The notes under the pieces were generated by a model that had not been told where the DNA came from, searched no databases, and saw only the letters and a program-made list of their open reading frames with translations. A DNA stretch of 64,000 bases from Balneola sp. (GTDB lineage Bacteria; Bacteroidota; Rhodothermia; Balneolales; Balneolaceae): contig JAEPPZ010000001.1 in assembly GCA_017640785.1 (NCBI GenBank), positions 372,001 through 436,000 of the forward strand. The letters are read 5' to 3'. This document shows positions 44,856 to 56,789 of this stretch, in pieces; the first letter of the stretch is position 1; every line of letters starts with the position of its first letter. The position numbers were made by a program, and so were the translations under genes.

Positions 44856-45554
44856 TTGGGAAAAAGAAATTATCTCCTAACCGTTGCATTAGTTTTTATC
44901 CTTGCTGGTTGTTCTACACAAAAATCAGTTCAAATTGTATCAGAAGGATATAAGACTACAAAAATCAATAATGCCAGCCTTGTTATTTTACCATTATCAG
45001 AGAGATTTGTCGACTCAGAAGTCTGGGAAAATCACTTTCAATTTGATTCAACGAATTCAAGCGACATAAGTCTCCATAACAGATTTCTTTTCTTTGAATA
45101 CTATGGAACTGCTTTTTCGAGAGTTTCTACCTCTAATGTTAAAGACTTAAGCACTAGTACAAACCTTGAAAATGTTAATAGTTCTATAGAATATGAAAAT
45201 GTGAAACTTGCTACTGATAAAGAAGGAGAGTTTCTGACATTTTTAGCCCCTAAAAATGGAACACTGACCATAGATAACAAAGAACCGGATTTTGTTCTTT
45301 TTACACAGACCCTGAGATGGAAAAATGAGCTCAAATCACAAGGTACCGTGATAATGGGGAGTGAAAACGAGTATTCAGTAAATATTAATATTAAACTCAA
45401 ATATCTTATCTGGGATAATAAGAATGAACGGATAGCTTCTTATGGAGTGATTTTAAAGACTGAATCTTTGATGGGAGTTCCTAAATCGCCTACTTACGAG
45501 AAAATAGCAACTGAACTTGCCCAAGATATAATAGAAGCTAGTCCGATTTTTTAA
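44856..45554 (+). CDS. Lipoprotein of unknown function
   Basis: 232 residues starting at TTG 44856 (MGKRNYLLTV). There is no in-frame ATG nearby and the signal peptide fits this start: a hydrophobic core then LAGC, a textbook lipobox, so the mature protein is a membrane-anchored lipoprotein. The rest is soluble, with alternating strand-like segments and no family motif I recognise. The 3' end overlaps the convergent pxpC gene by 17 bases. Placement gives no functional clue. Confidence 0.7.
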   Translation: MGKRNYLLTVALVFILAGCSTQKSVQIVSEGYKTTKINNASLVILPLSERFVDSEVWENHFQFDSTNSSDISLHNRFLFFEYYGTAFSRVSTSNVKDLSTSTNLENVNSSIEYENVKLATDKEGEFLTFLAPKNGTLTIDNKEPDFVLFTQTLRWKNELKSQGTVIMGSENEYSVNINIKLKYLIWDNKNERIASYGVILKTESLMGVPKSPTYEKIATELAQDIIEASPIF

Positions 45555-46410
45555 AACGAATAGTCCCATTAGGCGGAACTTGAGCCACCCTATTCAAATG
45601 GATATCCAAAACCTTACCAATTCTTGGGTATCCACCAACCGTTTGACCATCCTTCATTAATAATATTGGCGATCCGTTTGGAGGCAATTGAATGATTCCG
45701 GGAATAACACCGGATGAAACCATTTCTTTGCTCTTTGCTTCGATCTGAAAATCAGAGTTGAGCCGAATTCCCATTCTATTGCTTTCAGAGCTTATCTTAA
45801 ATTCTGTACTTAAAAATTTATCCTGCTCTTTTTTTGACAGCCAATTCCACTCCGGGCCGGGAATAAATTCAACGGTGAGTTTTGAACTGTAATAAGGAAT
45901 TTCCTTTTGAGATAGAGTGTAAGACTGAAAATCAGCCTGAATTTCTTTCCAGTGTAATTGATCGCCTTTTTGAAGATTCCGACCTTCTATTCCTCCAAAA
46001 TTTCCTTCGTTGTAAGTAGAGTAGCTCCCCAGTATTTTTTCGATCTCCCAAACTCCCCTAATGCCCAGATAACAGCGACAACCTCTGCTTGCATATTCAA
46101 ATTCTAAAATATCTCCAGCGCTTATCTTTAAAGTTGAATTCAATTCTACACTTTTTCCGTTTACTGTTGGATTCATATTAGCGCCTGCAAAAGCTATTAC
46201 TGAATCTGACTCAAATCTGTACCTCCCTCCTTTCAGAGTCATTTCCAGAACAGGAGTATCCGGAGAGTTTCCGACCAGACTGTTTACCAATTCAAATGCA
46301 GAATTATCCATAACTCCGGAAACAGGAACACCATATTTTCTGAACCCAAATCTTCCCGCATCCTGTACGGTTGTAAATAATCCTCCGTCTAAAACATCCA
46401 TTCTACCCAT
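45538..46410 (-). CDS. pxpC: 5-oxoprolinase subunit C (KipA-type)
   Basis: 290 residues. It carries the family signature near the start: TVQDAGRFGFRKYGVPVSGVMDNSAF, interrupted here as TVQDAGR, then GVPVSGVMD and NSLVGN, and later GPEWNW, SNRMGIRL and GSPILLMKDGQTVGGYP. With PxpA and PxpB it forms the ATP-dependent enzyme that opens 5-oxoproline to glutamate. It is the last gene of a four-gene minus-strand operon and overlaps pxpB by 8 bases. Confidence 0.93.
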   Translation of the reverse strand: MGRMDVLDGGLFTTVQDAGRFGFRKYGVPVSGVMDNSAFELVNSLVGNSPDTPVLEMTLKGGRYRFESDSVIAFAGANMNPTVNGKSVELNSTLKISAGDILEFEYASRGCRCYLGIRGVWEIEKILGSYSTYNEGNFGGIEGRNLQKGDQLHWKEIQADFQSYTLSQKEIPYYSSKLTVEFIPGPEWNWLSKKEQDKFLSTEFKISSESNRMGIRLNSDFQIEAKSKEMVSSGVIPGIIQLPPNGSPILLMKDGQTVGGYPRIGKVLDIHLNRVAQVPPNGTIRFKKSD

Positions 46411-47098
46411 TCTTTGCTACCATTTTATCAAACTCTTCTTTTGATATTGGTTTGAATCTTATCTTATCACCGGCTTTTAACTCGGTTGGAGGTGTTTTTT
46501 TGACATCAAAAAATGATTCTGTAGTTCTGCCAATGATTTGCCAACCCCCCGGACTTTCCAGAGAGTAAATTCCTGTTTGATTTCCCCCAATCCCAACTGA
46601 GCCTGAAGGAACTTTGATTCTGAGTTTTTCTTTTCTTGAAACAGCTATTCTTTGATCTAATCCATCCAAAAAAATGAATCCGGGCATAAACCCCATCATA
46701 GCAAGTGTGTAATTTTGTGTTGAATGTATTGAAATAACCTCCTCTTTCGATAAACCTGTTTTTACTTCAACCTCATTCCAATCTATACCTAACTCATAGC
46801 AGACATTGATCTCAAAAATGTTCTTTTCTCTACTTAAATGCTGTTCAGTACTTGACGAAATATCAGAAAGCATGTCTGGATCGTACTTAAACTGTGAGTC
46901 ATAAATAAGCGTGATAGAGTCATAAGCAGGAATTATATCCTGTAAGCCATCTATTTTAGATTGTTCCAACAGATCTGAAGTAGAATGAACGTGTTCTAAA
47001 ATCTTTTCCGATACTTTCGGTTGGAGTAACCAAGCTGTTTCCCCTAATCTGAAAACTGACCAGGAAATCCCATTAAGGTGCAGTAATCCTAACGCCAT
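46403..47098 (-). CDS. pxpB: 5-oxoprolinase subunit B (KipI-type)
   Basis: 231 residues. The core motifs of the KipI family are present: YDS.TL..DS near the middle, VCYELGIDW, MMGFMPGFIFLDGLD, then KVPSGSVGIGGNQTGIYSLESPGGW and the closing KAGDKIRFKPIS. It is one half of the PxpBC pair that works with PxpA in 5-oxoproline hydrolysis. In Bacillus the homologue KipI also inhibits the kinase KinA; no such kinase context is seen here. It overlaps pxpA by 26 bases and pxpC by 8. Confidence 0.93.
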   Translation of the reverse strand: MALGLLHLNGISWSVFRLGETAWLLQPKVSEKILEHVHSTSDLLEQSKIDGLQDIIPAYDSITLIYDSQFKYDPDMLSDISSSTEQHLSREKNIFEINVCYELGIDWNEVEVKTGLSKEEVISIHSTQNYTLAMMGFMPGFIFLDGLDQRIAVSRKEKLRIKVPSGSVGIGGNQTGIYSLESPGGWQIIGRTTESFFDVKKTPPTELKAGDKIRFKPISKEEFDKMVAKNG

Positions 47099-47831
47099 GG
47101 TTCTTTAGAAATTGATGAATATTTCTGGCAAGCACTTCAGAGCCTTTAGTATCACTGTGCAAACAAATAGTTTCAGCTTTTATAGGTAATTCTTTGCCTG
47201 AGTATGCAATAACTTTTTCTTCGATCACCATTTTAAAAATCTGAGACAAAACTTCTTCCTTTTTATGAAGAACTGCTCCTTCTTCTCTCCGAAAGCGTAG
47301 CCTTAAGTCATCTTCATATGCCCGATCTGCAAATACCTCTGCACAAAATTTCAAGCCATTTTTCAGAGCTGCCTTTTCAAATTCTGAGCCTGATTGTCCA
47401 TATACAATCACATTCAGACTCAATTCTTTGATAGCTTCAGCTACCGTCTTCGCAATATCTCTATATACTGAAGCTGCATTATATAATGCTCCGTGAGGTT
47501 TTATATGATGAAGCTCCACTCCCTCTAAATCAGCAATTTCTTTTAAACTTAAGATTTGATCTTTGATACTGTTTTTAAGTCGATCTCGATTCATTTCCAG
47601 CTGCCTGCGTCCAAATCCGACTCTATCGGGATAAGAAGGATGTGCTCCTACCTTCACTTTGTTTTTTTTAGCCAGAATTACAGTCCAGCGCATACTAATC
47701 TCATCTCCAATATGTCCACCACAGGCAATATTACACGATGAAATGTAAGGCATAATAGCTTTATCAAGATCAGGACCATCTTCAGAAATCCATTCTCCCA
47801 GATCACAATTTAGATCAATACTTGTTTTCAT
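47073..47831 (-). CDS. pxpA: 5-oxoprolinase subunit A (LamB/YcsF family)
   Basis: 252 residues. It begins with the LamB/YcsF hallmark DLNCDLGEW, followed by ISSCNIACGGHIGD, VGAHPSYPDRVGFGRR, HIKPHGALYN and ICLHSD. These are the conserved His/Asp residues of the metal-dependent subunit that acts on 5-oxoproline. Its start overlaps the end of the transporter gene by 4 bases (ATGA type), indicating coupled translation. The operon order is transporter, pxpA, pxpB, pxpC. Confidence 0.95.
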   Translation of the reverse strand: MKTSIDLNCDLGEWISEDGPDLDKAIMPYISSCNIACGGHIGDEISMRWTVILAKKNKVKVGAHPSYPDRVGFGRRQLEMNRDRLKNSIKDQILSLKEIADLEGVELHHIKPHGALYNAASVYRDIAKTVAEAIKELSLNVIVYGQSGSEFEKAALKNGLKFCAEVFADRAYEDDLRLRFRREEGAVLHKKEEVLSQIFKMVIEEKVIAYSGKELPIKAETICLHSDTKGSEVLARNIHQFLKNHGVRITAP

Positions 47832-49060
47832 AAGAACTGAAATACATTATTCAAGCTTCTGAAGCCAACTAATAATGCTACCAAAACCACTAAGCTTCCC
47901 AAAATATTCTGAATGGTTGTATTCACATAATCACCCAAAATTTTCTTTTGGTTTACGACATACATCAAAAATATTGCAACCAGCGGAAGCAATATTCCAT
48001 TGGCTACCTGAGCAAAATGAATAATACTTACTGGACTAAAGCTCAACATTGAAAACAAAACGCCAATGATGAGAATGATAATCCAGACTGCTTTAAATTT
48101 TGGATGTTTCAAATCTATATCCCAACCCAGAATTCCCTTCGCAGCAAATGCAGCTGCCAGTGGCGCCGTAATTGCAGATGAGATTCCGGCAGCAACCAAT
48201 CCTAATCCTAAAAAGTCTTTTGCCCAACTGCCTAGTAATGGTTCAAGCTGTACAGCCATATCAGCGGCGTTCTTAATTTCTGAACCTGAACTTCCTGATG
48301 CCGCACTTGTTATCACTATACACATTGAAATAATTCCACCTAAAATAATGGCAACCATATTTTCTTTTCTCAAATCCGAAAGCTGACTAGTTTCAGAATA
48401 TTTTTGCTGAACCGATGATGCATGCAGAAACAAATTATATGGAACAACCGTCGTTCCAATTAACGCCACAACCAATAGAATTTCGTCAGCTGAAGCAGTA
48501 GGAATAAACAGACCTTTAATTATTTCTGAAAGATCAGGAACGATCATAATTGCTGTTGCCAGAAAAACCACACTCATTACTACAACCAGACCTATCAGGA
48601 AGTTTTGAATTCGTTTAAAGTTTCCTGAATACAATAACCAAAAAGCAATCCCACCTATGATCAGTGGCACTAATCTAATTTCTACTCCTTCTATAAAGAT
48701 GTTTACAGCAGGTAGTACTTCGTTCCAACCAAGAACAGCCCCGGATATATTTCCCCCTTCATAGGCTGCATTACCGATAACAATTGCACCCAAAACCAAT
48801 GTGATCCCAAAGATCCTTAGTAACGGATTTTGCAGTTCACCACGAATTGCTTCACCAAATCCCTTTTGAGTAATTAAACCCAAGCGAGCGGTCATTTCTT
48901 GTAGTACAATCGTTGCAATTACTGAAAAAAATAAAGCCCAAAGCAATGTATACCCTGAATTCACCCCGGCTAGTGTACAAACGGTAACCGTTCCGGGACC
49001 AATGAAAGCTGCTGTGACTAAAGTACTTGGGCCAAAATATTTTTTAACTTGCAATTTCAT
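47828..49060 (-). CDS. Nramp-fold transporter lacking the canonical metal-binding residues
   Basis: 410 residues, about 11 hydrophobic helices. The fold matches the Nramp family: SGYTLLWAL and ARLGLITQKGFGEAIR in helices 1-2 and LIGTTVVPYNLFLHASSVQQ in helix 6. However, the metal site is altered: the helix 1 DPGN motif reads GPGT and the helix 6 MPH motif reads VPY. The metal-coordinating Asp, Asn and Met are therefore all replaced. The gene heads the pxpABC operon (4-base overlap with pxpA), an arrangement known for Nramp-like genes such as ycsG in Bacillus. I infer that it imports a substrate for this pathway, perhaps 5-oxoproline, rather than Mn or Fe. Confidence 0.85.
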   Translation of the reverse strand: MKLQVKKYFGPSTLVTAAFIGPGTVTVCTLAGVNSGYTLLWALFFSVIATIVLQEMTARLGLITQKGFGEAIRGELQNPLLRIFGITLVLGAIVIGNAAYEGGNISGAVLGWNEVLPAVNIFIEGVEIRLVPLIIGGIAFWLLYSGNFKRIQNFLIGLVVVMSVVFLATAIMIVPDLSEIIKGLFIPTASADEILLVVALIGTTVVPYNLFLHASSVQQKYSETSQLSDLRKENMVAIILGGIISMCIVITSAASGSSGSEIKNAADMAVQLEPLLGSWAKDFLGLGLVAAGISSAITAPLAAAFAAKGILGWDIDLKHPKFKAVWIIILIIGVLFSMLSFSPVSIIHFAQVANGILLPLVAIFLMYVVNQKKILGDYVNTTIQNILGSLVVLVALLVGFRSLNNVFQFL

Positions 49061-49115
49061 GGTTAAGAATATAGAATGTACCGTTTACAATCACGAATTC
49101 AGATCAAAGATTCTT

Positions 49116-49547
49116 ATGGCTAAAGCAAACAACAAAACTGTACCAACTCAAATGAAGGTACAGGATTACCTGAACGCTATTGAAGATCCTCAAAGAAAAG
49201 AAGATTGTATCAGAATTCATGATATGATGAAAGAAATTACAGGGCGAGAAGCAAAAATGTGGGGAACCTCCATCGTTGGTTTTGGGACCTACCACTATAA
49301 ATACGAAAGTGGTCGTGAAGGTGATATGCTTATGACAGGATTCTCTAACCGTAAGCAGTCTATTACCTTATATATACTTGGCGGATTAAAGAAAAGAGAA
49401 GCGTTTCTAAGCAAACTCGGACCTTATAAAACAGGAAAGTCATGTTTATATATAAAGCGTTTATCAGACATCGATATTAATGTGCTTGCTGACATGATAA
49501 AAGAGGATTTTGATCACGTCCGGGAAAAATATGAAGTTATTGATTAA
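49116..49547 (+). CDS. DUF1801-family small protein
   Basis: 143 residues from ATG at 49116. The open frame extends to 49002, but that part overlaps the divergent transporter gene and is unlikely to be translated. Seen: YLNAIEDPQRKEDC near the start, MWGTSIVGFGTYHYKY, then YILGGLKKREAFLSKLG and CLYIKRLSDIDI. These are DUF1801 (YdhG-like) features. The family has a SufE/YdhG-like fold and no agreed function. It is probably cytoplasmic. It stands alone, divergent from the pxp operon with a 55-base gap, so the two share a regulatory region. Confidence 0.85.
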   Translation: MAKANNKTVPTQMKVQDYLNAIEDPQRKEDCIRIHDMMKEITGREAKMWGTSIVGFGTYHYKYESGREGDMLMTGFSNRKQSITLYILGGLKKREAFLSKLGPYKTGKSCLYIKRLSDIDINVLADMIKEDFDHVREKYEVID

Positions 49548-53327: not shown

Positions 53328-53349
53328 TAATATTCTAATGAGAATATTA
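53328..53349. promoter_or_regulatory. Palindromic operator upstream of first Rrf2 gene
   Basis: Arms AATATTCT (53329-53336) and AGAATATT (53341-53348) around AATG, extended by one T-A pair. It lies just before the ATG at 53359. Read as a 20-mer (53330-53349) it matches the minus strand of 53873-53892 at 17 positions. It is a likely Rrf2 autoregulation site (inference). Confidence 0.65.
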
Positions 53350-53358
53350 TATTTAAGC

Positions 53359-53805
53359 ATGAAATTAGTATCTCAAGGAGCTCAGTATGCAATATCAGCT
53401 ATAATAGCTCTATCAAAAAAAGAATATGGAAAGGCAGTATCAGCTGCCGACCTTGCAAAAGCTTTAGATTGTCCGGCTGCTTATCTTTCTCAATTACTTT
53501 CAAAATTGAAGAAGCCCGGAATTTTAAAGTCTCAACGTGGTTTAAATGGAGGTGTACTCTTAGCCAAACCCGTAAAAGAAATTTCCATCTATGATGTAAT
53601 TGTTGCAATAGATGGAGACAGTTTTTTTAATAATTGCTTTATGGGAATTGAAGGATGTGGGCATATTGAACCTTGCCCGTTTCATAATTTTTGGTCAAGT
53701 CAACGGCAAAAAATTAAAAAATGGTTGATTGATACAAATTTTGAAGACGCCGAAAAGGCAATGTCTCAAGTTTGGTTCGAGCAACAACTTAACTTCACTT
53801 CCTAG
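53359..53805 (+). CDS. Rrf2-family iron-sulfur-type transcription regulator, copy 1
   Basis: 148 residues from ATG at 53359, chosen because the paralogue at 53905 begins the same way (MK..SQG.QYAISA); an ATG at 53338 lies inside the operator. A winged helix-turn-helix (CPAAYLSQLLSKLKKPGILKS, given here in parts: CPAAYLSQ and KKPGILKSQRG) is followed by LNGGVLLAKP, the wing, and by three cysteines spaced C-x6-C-x5-C (CFMGIEGCGHIEPC) that could hold an iron-sulfur cluster as in IscR, NsrR and RsrR. It probably senses redox state, oxygen or nitric oxide. It lies upstream of the second Rrf2 gene and the cbb3 oxidase operon. Confidence 0.9.
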   Translation: MKLVSQGAQYAISAIIALSKKEYGKAVSAADLAKALDCPAAYLSQLLSKLKKPGILKSQRGLNGGVLLAKPVKEISIYDVIVAIDGDSFFNNCFMGIEGCGHIEPCPFHNFWSSQRQKIKKWLIDTNFEDAEKAMSQVWFEQQLNFTS

Positions 53806-53904: not shown

Positions 53905-54360
53905 ATGAAATTTATATCACAAGGCACTCAATATGCGATTTCGGCGATAATTGCAATCTCAAAGCATCCCTCTGATATAATTTCTGCGTCTGAACTTGCC
54001 AAACCTTTGAACTGCCCGGCTGCTTACCTCTCTCAAATCCTTGCAAAATTAAAAAAACCTGGTATTTTAAAGTCTCAACGTGGTCTCAGAGGTGGAGTAT
54101 ATTTAACCAAAGAGTTGAAAGATATTTCTATTTATGAAGTTGTAGCTGCTATTGATGGCGAAGTATTTTTTAATTCGTGCTTTATGGGAATTGAAGGTTG
54201 TGGGCATATTGAACCATGTCCTTTCCATTCATTTTGGGCTATTGAAAGAGATAAGATTAAAAAGTGGCTTCAAGAAACAACTTTTGAGAATGTAGATGAA
54301 CTAATGACACAAGTTTGGTTTGAACAACACCTCTCATTTGTAAGTGGCTTAAAAAGCTAA
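53905..54360 (+). CDS. Rrf2-family iron-sulfur-type transcription regulator, copy 2
   Basis: 151 residues, paralogous to 53359-53805 over its full length: QYAISAIIAISK, CPAAYLSQILAKLKKPG (here shortened), SQRGLRGGVYLTKE and the same C-x6-C-x5-C cluster region CFMGIEGCGHIEPC. Its stop overlaps the ATG of ccoI by one base, so it belongs to the cbb3 operon and presumably controls it. Rrf2 control of a cbb3 oxidase differs from the FNR/FixLJ control known in Proteobacteria. Whether copy 1 and copy 2 act as homodimers or a heterodimer cannot be seen. Confidence 0.9.
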   Translation: MKFISQGTQYAISAIIAISKHPSDIISASELAKPLNCPAAYLSQILAKLKKPGILKSQRGLRGGVYLTKELKDISIYEVVAAIDGEVFFNSCFMGIEGCGHIEPCPFHSFWAIERDKIKKWLQETTFENVDELMTQVWFEQHLSFVSGLKS

Positions 54361-56789
54361 TGGAAGATGTAATCGCAAAACATACTTCATGTTCGCATTG
54401 TGGTGAGCCTGCAGAGTTTAATACTAACTCTGAATTAAGTTTTTGTTGCCAAGGCTGCGAAACAGTGTATCATCTTCTGGCAGATAATAATTTACACACG
54501 TATTATGACTTAGATTCTACTCCGGGCACTACAATAAAGCAGAGTATAGAAAGAAAGAGATTTGATTACCTAATCGATAAAGACGTTCAAGAAAAACTTA
54601 TTGATTTCAAGAATGCTGAAGTTGCCTCAGCATCTTTCAATATCCCGAATATCCACTGTACTTCTTGTGTTTGGCTGTTAGAAAATCTTCAAAATTTGAA
54701 TGATGGTATCCTTCAGGGAACCGTAAACTTTCTGAAGCGCCGGTTAACTATTGTTTTTGACACAAAAAAAACGGACCTCAGAAGTATCGTTGAGCTTTTA
54801 ACTACCATTGGGTACGAACCAAACCTGAAGCTTGATCAACTTGAAGAAAGAGAGCAAGTTTCTGTCCCCAGAGACCTCTGGTTAAAGTTAGGAGTGGCCG
54901 GATTCTGTTTTGGTAACATCATGCTTTTCAGTTTTCCCGAATACCTGAACATGTCGGTTTCTGATTCTGTGGATACATTTAAAGTACTCTTCGGAATCTT
55001 AAATATCTTATTAGCTATTCCTGTGCTGGTTTACAGCTCAATAGACTACTTAAAATCTGCTTGGGCAGCAATAAGTCAAAAAGGTATCAATCTTGATGTT
55101 CCTATCTCAATCGGTATTATCGCATTATTTGGCAGAAGTCTATATGAGATATTAAGTGGAACAGGAGCCGGTTATTTTGACTCATTTTCGGGATTCATAT
55201 TCTTTCTGTTGATCGGAAAAATGGTCCAAAAGAAAACATTCCAAGGACTCTCTTTCGATCGTGATTATAAGTCCTACCTGCCTATTTCGGTTTTAAAACT
55301 TATCAACGGAGTTGAACGCTCTGTTTCTGTAAAAACTCTAACAATTGGTGATGAAATAATTCTTAGGAATAATGAATTGATTCCATGTGATTCAATTTTG
55401 CAATCTGATTCTGCCATAATTGATTACAGCTTTATTACAGGAGAATCTACTCCGGTAACAAAAATATATGGTGAATTAATTTTTGCAGGAGGCAAGATCT
55501 TGGGCTCGCAAACCCGAATGTTGGTTTCCAAAAAAGTTCAACATAGCTATCTCACTCAATTATGGGAAAATGACGCTATAAATTTAACTAATGATAAAAC
55601 CCATCAATCGTTAGCTGATCGAATTAGCCCTTATTTTACATTTATCGTAATTGTAATTGCTTTTGCCTCGTGCCTGACTTGGTTTTTTATCGAACCATCC
55701 AAAGCTTTTACGGTATTTACTGCCGTGTTAATTGTTGCGTGCCCTTGTGCTTTGGCTTTGTCAGGACCATTTACATTTGGTTCAGCTACAAATATTCTTT
55801 CTTTAAATGGCTTATTCCTTAAAAATATTGAAGGAATTGAAAGTATAGGAAACGTAGATACTATAGTTTTTGATAAAACAGGAACCATTACTGATTCTGA
55901 AAAAGCTGAAATTACATTTATTGGAAATGCTCTTACTGAAGATGAAAAAGAACTGATCTTTTCATCAACAAAGAACTCTACTCATCCTTACAGCAAAAAG
56001 ATATACAGGTTTTTTAAAGAAGAAGGTTTGAACTATTCGATTCCGGAAAGGATCGAAGAAATCAGAGGAAAAGGTATTCATGCATCTTTCCAACTAACTA
56101 ATGTTCATCTAGGCAGTAAGAGCTTTATTGAAGAATACACCGGTATTAAAATCCCAATTTCAGGTACAAAGAGTTCACATGTTTATATAGTTATAGATTA
56201 TAAATTCGTTGGCTCTTTTGAATTCAAAAATCATCTCAGAACCGGGGTTGATAAACTCCTTAATAAACTTAAAGCCGCTTTTAATTTATATCTCCTGTCA
56301 GGAGATAATCAAAAAGATGGCATTTGGCTTGCTAAGTATTTTGATGCGGATAAGAACATGTATTTCAATCAATCTCCTCAACAAAAGTTAGCATTTGTTG
56401 CTTCCCTTTCGGATATCCAAAAAAAGGTGTTAATGATTGGAGACGGATTGAACGATGCCGGAGCACTGAATAAGAGTCATTTTGGAATTGCTTTATCTGA
56501 TAAGACCAGTTCTTTCTCTCCTGCTTGTGACGCAATTCTGGATGGAAATGAGCTCCAAAACATTGATAAACTTATAGAATTCTCAAAAGTATCTATAAGC
56601 ATTGTACATTTTAGTTTTGGGCTTTCTCTGTTATATAATATTACAGGACTTTCTTTTGCTATAACTGGACATTTATCGCCCTTGGTTGCTGCTATTTTAA
56701 TGCCATTAAGTTCTATCACAATAATGGCTTTTACCACATTTGCTACCCGCTTAAAAGCTAGAAAAATGGGGTTAAAAATATGGGTGTAA
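54360..56789 (+). CDS. ccoI: Cu-translocating P1B-type ATPase CcoI (FixI)
   Basis: 809 residues. The N-terminal CcoI cysteine-rich segment is present (CSHCGEPAEF, then FCCQGCETVYHLLA), followed by an HMA domain with CTSCVW. After that come eight membrane helices, the actuator TGES, the CPC motif in IVACPCALALSG, the phosphorylation site DKTGT, and GDGLNDAGAL. It exports copper for assembly of the cbb3 oxidase. It is the first oxidase-related gene after the Rrf2 pair and overlaps the Rrf2 stop by 1 base and ccoS by 10. Confidence 0.95.
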   Translation: MEDVIAKHTSCSHCGEPAEFNTNSELSFCCQGCETVYHLLADNNLHTYYDLDSTPGTTIKQSIERKRFDYLIDKDVQEKLIDFKNAEVASASFNIPNIHCTSCVWLLENLQNLNDGILQGTVNFLKRRLTIVFDTKKTDLRSIVELLTTIGYEPNLKLDQLEEREQVSVPRDLWLKLGVAGFCFGNIMLFSFPEYLNMSVSDSVDTFKVLFGILNILLAIPVLVYSSIDYLKSAWAAISQKGINLDVPISIGIIALFGRSLYEILSGTGAGYFDSFSGFIFFLLIGKMVQKKTFQGLSFDRDYKSYLPISVLKLINGVERSVSVKTLTIGDEIILRNNELIPCDSILQSDSAIIDYSFITGESTPVTKIYGELIFAGGKILGSQTRMLVSKKVQHSYLTQLWENDAINLTNDKTHQSLADRISPYFTFIVIVIAFASCLTWFFIEPSKAFTVFTAVLIVACPCALALSGPFTFGSATNILSLNGLFLKNIEGIESIGNVDTIVFDKTGTITDSEKAEITFIGNALTEDEKELIFSSTKNSTHPYSKKIYRFFKEEGLNYSIPERIEEIRGKGIHASFQLTNVHLGSKSFIEEYTGIKIPISGTKSSHVYIVIDYKFVGSFEFKNHLRTGVDKLLNKLKAAFNLYLLSGDNQKDGIWLAKYFDADKNMYFNQSPQQKLAFVASLSDIQKKVLMIGDGLNDAGALNKSHFGIALSDKTSSFSPACDAILDGNELQNIDKLIEFSKVSISIVHFSFGLSLLYNITGLSFAITGHLSPLVAAILMPLSSITIMAFTTFATRLKARKMGLKIWV

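Follow-up and report, generated by a model that had tools for sequence, protein, structure and literature searches.

The first gene of a 5-oxoprolinase operon in a Balneola genome encodes a transporter of the Nramp fold in which the metal-site motifs of that family are replaced. It lies on the reverse strand of the 64-kb stretch of DNA analysed here (the window; contig JAEPPZ010000001.1, positions 372,001 to 436,000). The open reading frame (ORF), taken from the ORF list of the window, begins with ATG, and its stop and the start of pxpA share 4 bp (47828-47831). The overlap between pxpA and pxpB is 26 bp and that between pxpB and pxpC is 8 bp, the gene order being transporter, pxpA, pxpB and pxpC (pxpTABC; Table 1). 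The original prediction, made from the letters of the window alone, that the gene overlaps pxpA and heads a 5-oxoprolinase operon was thus borne out, Pfam backing the assignment of each of the three subunits. The closest named relative of the transporter, among the best 80 of 588 stretches, was found in Balneola sp. EhC07 (97% along the full protein).

The window protein matched Pfam family PF01566 (Nramp) over residues 29-381 with 281 bits (E 1.6e-83; cut-off 29.8), and stayed under the cut-offs of the NCBIfam models for MntH (150 of 430 bits for NF001923 and 102.8 of 272.5 for TIGR01197). An AlphaFold2 model built with an alignment of 90 sequences had a mean predicted local distance difference test score (pLDDT) of 94.5 and a predicted template modelling score (pTM) of 0.92. 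The model contained the LeuT-type fold with broken transmembrane helices (TM) 1 and 6, in agreement with membership of PF01566; the breaks fell at 20-21 in TM1 and at 205-206 in TM6. The top fold match among solved structures was DraNramp (6c3i; Z 49.0, root-mean-square deviation 2.4, 377 aligned residues), followed by EleNRMT, a magnesium carrier (Z 45.3), and BfraNramp (10ky; Z 44.9). The amino-acid carriers AdiC (Z 31.3) and AgcS (Z 30.0) came further down the ranking. Fold likeness of this kind is uninformative on the substrate.

Canonical Nramp/MntH proteins have DPGN in TM1 and MPH in TM6, and the window protein has neither. In the alignment, D56 and N59 (of DPGN) and M230 and H232 (of MPH) of DraNramp corresponded to G, T, V and Y. 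The replacement of DPGN by GPGT and of MPH by VPY within conserved flanks, as originally described, was therefore confirmed both in the DNA and in the alignment to DraNramp. Relatives were gathered from genomes, genome contigs and plasmids. At 319 loci (designated L plus a number) the matching ORF was 360 aa or longer; these reduced to 229 distinct ones and, once 11 outgroup rows were removed, to 218 members of the family, hereafter clade T1. Residues were counted in the 139 family rows that had not been selected by motif, the window protein being counted twice since it is also present as its own genome copy; the 80 contig loci found via motifs including AAFIGPG and GTTVVPY, which rank as the best 80 among 588 confirmed stretches, were excluded from this count. 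Ten residues were invariant in all 139 rows: G21, P22, G23, N104, T203, T204, V206, Y208, N209 and N354. Position 24 was T in 133 rows and S in six, and position 101, in TM3, was E in 126 and Q in 13. P207 was conserved in 119 rows (otherwise G, T or A) and H213 in 101 (otherwise G, Y, Q or A). N104 aligned with E134 of DraNramp by way of EleNRMT, part of which aligns to the window protein without gaps. Because G21, V206, Y208, N104, T203, T204, N209 and N354 do not vary in any row, GPGT and VPY are not the product of chance or error. With the metal ligands of TM1 and TM6 exchanged for other residues that are fixed, selection for another substrate is favoured over decay.

Table 1. Genes of the pxpTABC operon and site residues of the transporter, in window coordinates
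Feature	Position	Strand	Evidence or remark
pxpT-like Nramp-fold transporter, clade T1, 410 aa	47828..49060	(-)	ORF, Pfam/NCBIfam, AlphaFold2 mean pLDDT 94.5
TM1 GPGT, residues 21-24, replacing DPGN	48989..49000	(-)	DNA GGT CCC GGA ACG; modelled helix break H11-19/H22-35
TM3 E101-G-G-N104; N104 at the Nramp TM3 Glu position (DraNramp E134) in the alignment used	48749..48760	(-)	Alignment
TM6 V206-P-Y208, replacing MPH	48437..48445	(-)	DNA GTT CCA TAT; modelled helix break H191-204/H207-220
N354, TM10; common to T1, T2 and EleNRMT; Leu in the metal clade	47999..48001	(-)	Alignment
pxpA, 5-oxoprolinase subunit A	47073..47831	(-)	PF03746
pxpB, 5-oxoprolinase subunit B	46403..47098	(-)	PF02682
pxpC, 5-oxoprolinase subunit C	45538..46410	(-)	PF02626

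The neighbourhoods of T1 genes, which in the sampled records occur in Bacteroidota, Pseudomonadota and haloarchaea, revealed two kinds of partner enzyme. When a partner was defined strictly, as an enzyme gene on the same strand at a distance of 3 kb or less, Pxp genes accompanied 117 of the 218 members and OplA/HyuAB genes 33; the counts are those of samples, not of a census. The strict labels left out three loci: in L164 an OplA gene and in L201 a PxpA gene, 4.7 kb distant, lay on the opposite strand, and in L253 the OplA gene was at 4.9 kb. PxpA adjoined the transporter on the same strand in 74 of the best 80 of 588 contig loci, OplA lay directly downstream in two (L099, L115), and four had neither. 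Of 394 genomes sampled evenly across the window's phylum, 76 had the T1 family, and 52 of these 76 genes were linked (35 beside Pxp, the window included, and 17 beside OplA/HyuAB; 24 had neither). The bacterial family of the window also holds a second T1 subgroup with 38-46% identity; among 17 of its loci that were examined, fused OplA was present on the same strand within 3 kb in 14, at 4.9 kb in one (L253), and was absent from two with short flanks (L232, L254). On haloarchaeal plasmids, relatives with 46-51% identity stood directly before HyuA in eight of the nine stretches examined. HyuB followed in seven of these eight, and in the other (L145) the record ends at that point; the stretch from Natrononativus (L146) had neither HyuA nor HyuB beside the transporter. 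The tree requires at least three exchanges between Pxp and OplA/HyuAB with the strict labels, and five with looser ones.

Canonical MntH served as a control. In 30 loci, all with DPG(N/S) and MPH and representing the best of 108 matching genomes among 296, no lactam enzyme was found within flanks of 1.5 kb. With equal flanks, a lactam enzyme was present in 29 of 29 T1 loci, all of them close kin of the window gene, that of L023 being an OplA on the opposite strand. No such enzyme was found in the neighbourhood of five other Nramp-related paralogues (L041-L045). In the openly licensed literature searched, no description was found of a PF01566 transporter beside OplA or hydantoinase genes.

PxpABC (PF03746, PF02682, PF02626) and OplA/HyuAB (PF05378, PF01968, PF02538) have no Pfam family in common, and the two enzymes are reported to be types of ATP-dependent 5-oxoprolinase without sequence similarity, 5-oxoproline being the reported substrate of PxpABC (PMC13274462). 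The swapping of two non-homologous enzymes beside one transporter thus favours a lactam substrate, with 5-oxoproline first. The exchange itself gives the lactam theme, and 5-oxoproline as the specific lactam follows from the PxpABC partner. We consider it probable (roughly 0.7) that T1 proteins carry an organic substrate of the lactam type, 5-oxoproline in the first place. This was also the first guess of the original prediction; it gains indirect support from the fixed site replacements and from the two lactam-enzyme partners, and the identity of the substrate stays a prediction. The T1 protein would be a secondary importer of 5-oxo-L-proline (pyroglutamate), or of a very similar small lactam carboxylate, operating by alternating access in the Nramp/LeuT fold around the TM1 and TM6 breaks. 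In amino-acid carriers of the amino acid-polyamine-organocation (APC) type, the unwound TM1 holds the carboxylate. In T1, the Gly-x-Gly break of TM1, N104 of TM3 and Y208 of TM6 might together bind the carboxylate and the lactam amide, and PxpABC, by opening 5-oxoproline to glutamate with ATP, would keep the gradient inward. The name 'Nramp family divalent metal transporter' is attached to T1 members both by the profile and in plasmid annotation; if they carry 5-oxoproline, this name is wrong for the clade in Bacteroidota, Pseudomonadota and haloarchaea.

Several observations weigh against 5-oxoproline as the substrate, and they are given here together with the alternatives on which they bear. 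Under the strict labels, 68 of the 218 T1 genes had neither enzyme beside them; the flank was shorter than 1.5 kb in four of the unlinked loci (L124, L220, L232, L254). Clustering the neighbours of the unlinked loci returned only lineage-specific neighbours. In the order of genome G092, taken as Pseudomonadales, 39 of 390 genomes matched, and three of these matched at 29-30% and belong to another clade, leaving 36 with T1; the T1 gene lay beside PxpABC in only four of the 36. An obligate tie of all T1 members to 5-oxoprolinase was accordingly rejected, given these 68 unlinked members and the 32 of 36 unlinked T1 genomes of this order. In support of 5-oxoproline, PxpA was present somewhere in the genome in 33 of the 36 T1 genomes versus 9 of 20 T1-negative genomes, the latter being the 20 listed and therefore non-random (Fisher p 2.2e-4, kinship uncontrolled). 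OplA/Hyu-type genes were no commoner with T1 (17 of 36) than without it (8 of 20), and one or other enzyme was encoded in 35 of 36 and 16 of 20 genomes, respectively.

The alternative that survives best is that T1 imports a divalent metal (Mn2+) and so feeds cofactor to the adjoining ATP-dependent lactam hydrolase, the exchange of enzymes being explained by the profit that both would draw from it. We regard this as unlikely. In its favour, the window protein scored 80 bits, over a cut-off of 50, with NF037982, 'Nramp family divalent metal transporter', although this is a profile name and no proof of function. The original prediction had named metal ligands restored elsewhere in the site as an outcome that would speak against it. 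Judged by sequence, none appears to have been restored, except that E101 in TM3 leaves a carboxylate near the site; under the TM3 register used by Cellier, E101 and not N104 would take the place of the Nramp TM3 Glu (PMC10606218, PMC9606685). Further, neither a canonical MntH nor a ZnuA-type protein was found in the window's genome, where only two ZIP proteins were seen, so a role in Mn supply would not be redundant and the metal reading keeps some weight. As a side observation, the only further protein of this genome to exceed the Nramp cut-off (L002, C18:36288-37328) carries GVSHLVQ in TM1 and shows a weak likeness to amino-acid permeases (PF13520, 26.4 bits; cut-off 27). The metal reading is also helped by a Tsukamurella plasmid (L359, 4096-5753), on which pxpA overlaps the permease gene of a metal ABC transporter; the annotated table of this 10.7-kb stretch lists no pxpB or pxpC. 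Mn transport has also been claimed for the distant pxp-linked proteins YcsG (PMC10448178) and MumT (PMC5050338). Against Mn import stand the loss of the TM1 Asp and Asn and of the TM6 Met and His, with replacements that are fixed or nearly so, the absence of any link between canonical MntH and these enzymes in the 30 control loci, and the reported need of PxpT for growth on 5-oxoproline (PMC13274462). T1 shares the fold with the canonical MntH proteins DraNramp and BfraNramp, but its identity to them is 20-26%, and in the alignment used the TM3 Glu is replaced in addition to DPGN and MPH.

The statement of the original prediction that Nramp-like genes occur with pxpABC is true, but the ones that have been studied belong to a separate clade, T2, with about 20% identity to T1. 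Among the Foldseek hits of the window model was 9a52, an integrative model that combines Bacillus subtilis YcsG and FabL; its identity to the window model was only 21%. YcsG was compared as this PDB model, through Foldseek and through sequence identity; sequence searches of the PDB with other Nramp-related paralogues did not return it. The model of a T2 member (L373) was 61-63% identical to 9a52 and the window model 21%, and YcsG is therefore a T2 protein. The source that linked ycsG to 5-oxoproline in B. subtilis is reportedly Niehaus 2017. PxpT probably belongs to T2 as well, because its reported identity to YcsG is 50% (PMC13274462), and so probably does MumT, because its gene order (PMC5050338) matches that of an Acinetobacter baumannii record (L382) among the T2 members, and because a 62.6% T2 relative occurs in an A. 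baumannii record. In the tree, T1 (support 100/98) and T2 were separate clades with 100% bootstrap each, and a joint clade, although not recovered, was not rejected by the approximately unbiased test (p-AU 0.227). The window gene as an orthologue of YcsG/PxpT was rejected, given the 21% identity to 9a52 and the separate T2 clade. New here is that the window's T1 clade differs from the pxp-linked transporter clade studied so far.

Matches to T2 were present in 168 plasmid records; in the order of G092, 14 of 381 genomes had one. Pxp genes lay beside 17 of 18 T2 loci, the exception (L380) being a piece of 3.0 kb; L365, which is among the 18, had been located via PxpA. A plasmid search with PxpA led to a Rhizobium operon composed of the transporter, pxpA, a D-glutamate-cyclase-like gene, a PxpBC fusion and biotin carboxylase, from which the T2 clade was then traced. 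On a plasmid of Bacillus badius, pxpA, the T2 transporter and a hydro-lyase occurred together. The D-glutamate-cyclase-like gene was present in 10 of the 18 T2 stretches (L365, L367-L371, L378, L381, L382 and L383; PF07286 was scanned in L365), unlike in the operon of the window, which has none. As a separate observation, the mum operon, described as one of urea metabolism, may instead serve the metabolism of 5-oxoproline or D-glutamate.

YcsG (MntG) and PxpT share with the window protein the Nramp/LeuT fold, PF01566 and an encoding together with pxpABC (PMC13274462), and MumT is likewise encoded with pxpA-like and PxpBC-like genes, as judged from L382 and the gene order in PMC5050338. The literature on T2 is in conflict. 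Overproduction of YcsG was reported to raise cell Mn, with MntR binding the promoter, and import of Mn2+ was concluded (Ogura 2023, PMC10448178); MumT was reported as an Mn transporter leading to Mn accumulation in A. baumannii (Juttukonda 2016, PMC5050338). Both reports speak for the metal. The failure to obtain a triple mutant was a further argument in Ogura 2023, where it is also remarked that the earlier evidence for 5-oxoproline may be polar (PMC10448178). In Corynebacterium glutamicum, by contrast, pxpT was required for growth on 5-oxoproline and a plasmid copy restored it, metals not being excluded (Sundermeyer 2026, PMC13274462).

The two clades agree in their sites. Between 12 T1 rows and 18 T2 rows, 20 columns are conserved in each clade with an identical letter. 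Ten metal-clade rows have another fixed letter, given in brackets, in five of these columns: G21 (D), G103 (A), N104 (E), Y208 (H) and N354 (L). Three of the five correspond to the metal/proton positions D56, E134 and H232, at which all 18 T2 rows had G, N and Y, as does the window protein; this agreement counts in favour of the 5-oxoproline reading of T1, as does the reported need for PxpT. A similar set of residues has been described for the Slc11 'orphan' outgroup in PF01566 (Cellier 2023, PMC10606218), which resembles T1 in the V-Y of TM6, in the Y-N of TM3, in an A-to-T change, and in four TM3 glycines (here G96, G103, G107 and G111). The match is one of residues, and no function and no linkage to pxp or OplA was found in the description of the outgroup (PMC10606218). 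Nramp-related proteins without DPGN and MPH form a paraphyletic group according to a preprint in which one search was seeded with MumT (Ray 2026, PMC12873925). Two more Nramp-related groups (L286-L288 and L043-L044) had GPGS in TM1 and the TM3 Asn, and no TM6 Tyr.

A tentative and rather doubtful extension of these results is that the Nramp fold carried small organic acids before it carried metals. In that case two lactam-carboxylate branches sharing G-N-Y, T1 and T2, would survive, metal carriage with its Asp, Glu, Met and His would be a later gain, and YcsG and MumT would owe their Mn phenotypes indirectly to 5-oxoproline/glutamate metabolism. The G-N-Y site would bear on whether Nramp metal transport arose from organic-solute carriers. 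Should T1 carry 5-oxoproline, it would provide a second test case in the dispute between Mn2+ (YcsG/MntG, MumT) and 5-oxoproline (PxpT), and the shared site points to three residues that could be replaced to help settle it.

Next in standing after Mn import, and improbable in our judgement, is transport of a small organic acid similar to 5-oxoproline but not 5-oxoproline itself, such as a hydantoin-type lactam, glutamate or 2-oxoglutarate, with a specificity that varies by subclade. The nearest solved relative of the fused OplA partner was indeed named N-methylhydantoinase (1288 aa; 7hk5, 454 bits); a second one contains a chain named 5-oxoprolinase (6yra_A, 200 bits), and NCBIfam gave sub-threshold matches only, to caprolactamase and acetophenone carboxylase. 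The OplA/HyuAB neighbours are thus not assignable to 5-oxoprolinase for sure. A racemase-like gene occurs in several haloarchaeal T1 clusters, and eight T1 loci (L210, L211, L214, L220, L221, L238, L239 and L240) lie directly behind a gene pair of the 2-oxoacid:ferredoxin oxidoreductase type. This last subgroup has VGPGTVLT in TM1; the Pfam scan covered L211, and KorAB is an interpretive label. The variation at residues 207 and 213, which flank the core, would also suit differing specificities. The core site residues are, however, identical in all 139 rows, and Pxp, whose reported substrate is 5-oxoproline (PMC13274462), is the commonest partner. A carrier of magnesium or another alkaline-earth metal resembling EleNRMT is highly improbable: EleNRMT is among the nearest solved structures, also lacks DPGN and MPH, and has N354, T203 and T204 in common with T1, but it keeps the TM1 Asp and the TM3 Glu that T1 has lost in the alignment used, has W at the position of Y208 and falls outside T1 in the tree. 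Import of 5-oxoproline is retained as the preferred reading of T1.

Transfer RNA and Rfam scans of the window gave zero matches. Upstream of the transporter, a divergent DUF1801 ORF (49002-49547 as listed) overlaps the transporter start; the ATG at 49116 is the likelier start and would leave 55 bp between the two genes. Further along, two very similar small regulators, Rrf2-like by eye, lie in tandem (53338-53805 and 53905-54360) and precede an ORF at 54360-56789 which, also by eye, resembles a P-type ATPase of the heavy-metal type.

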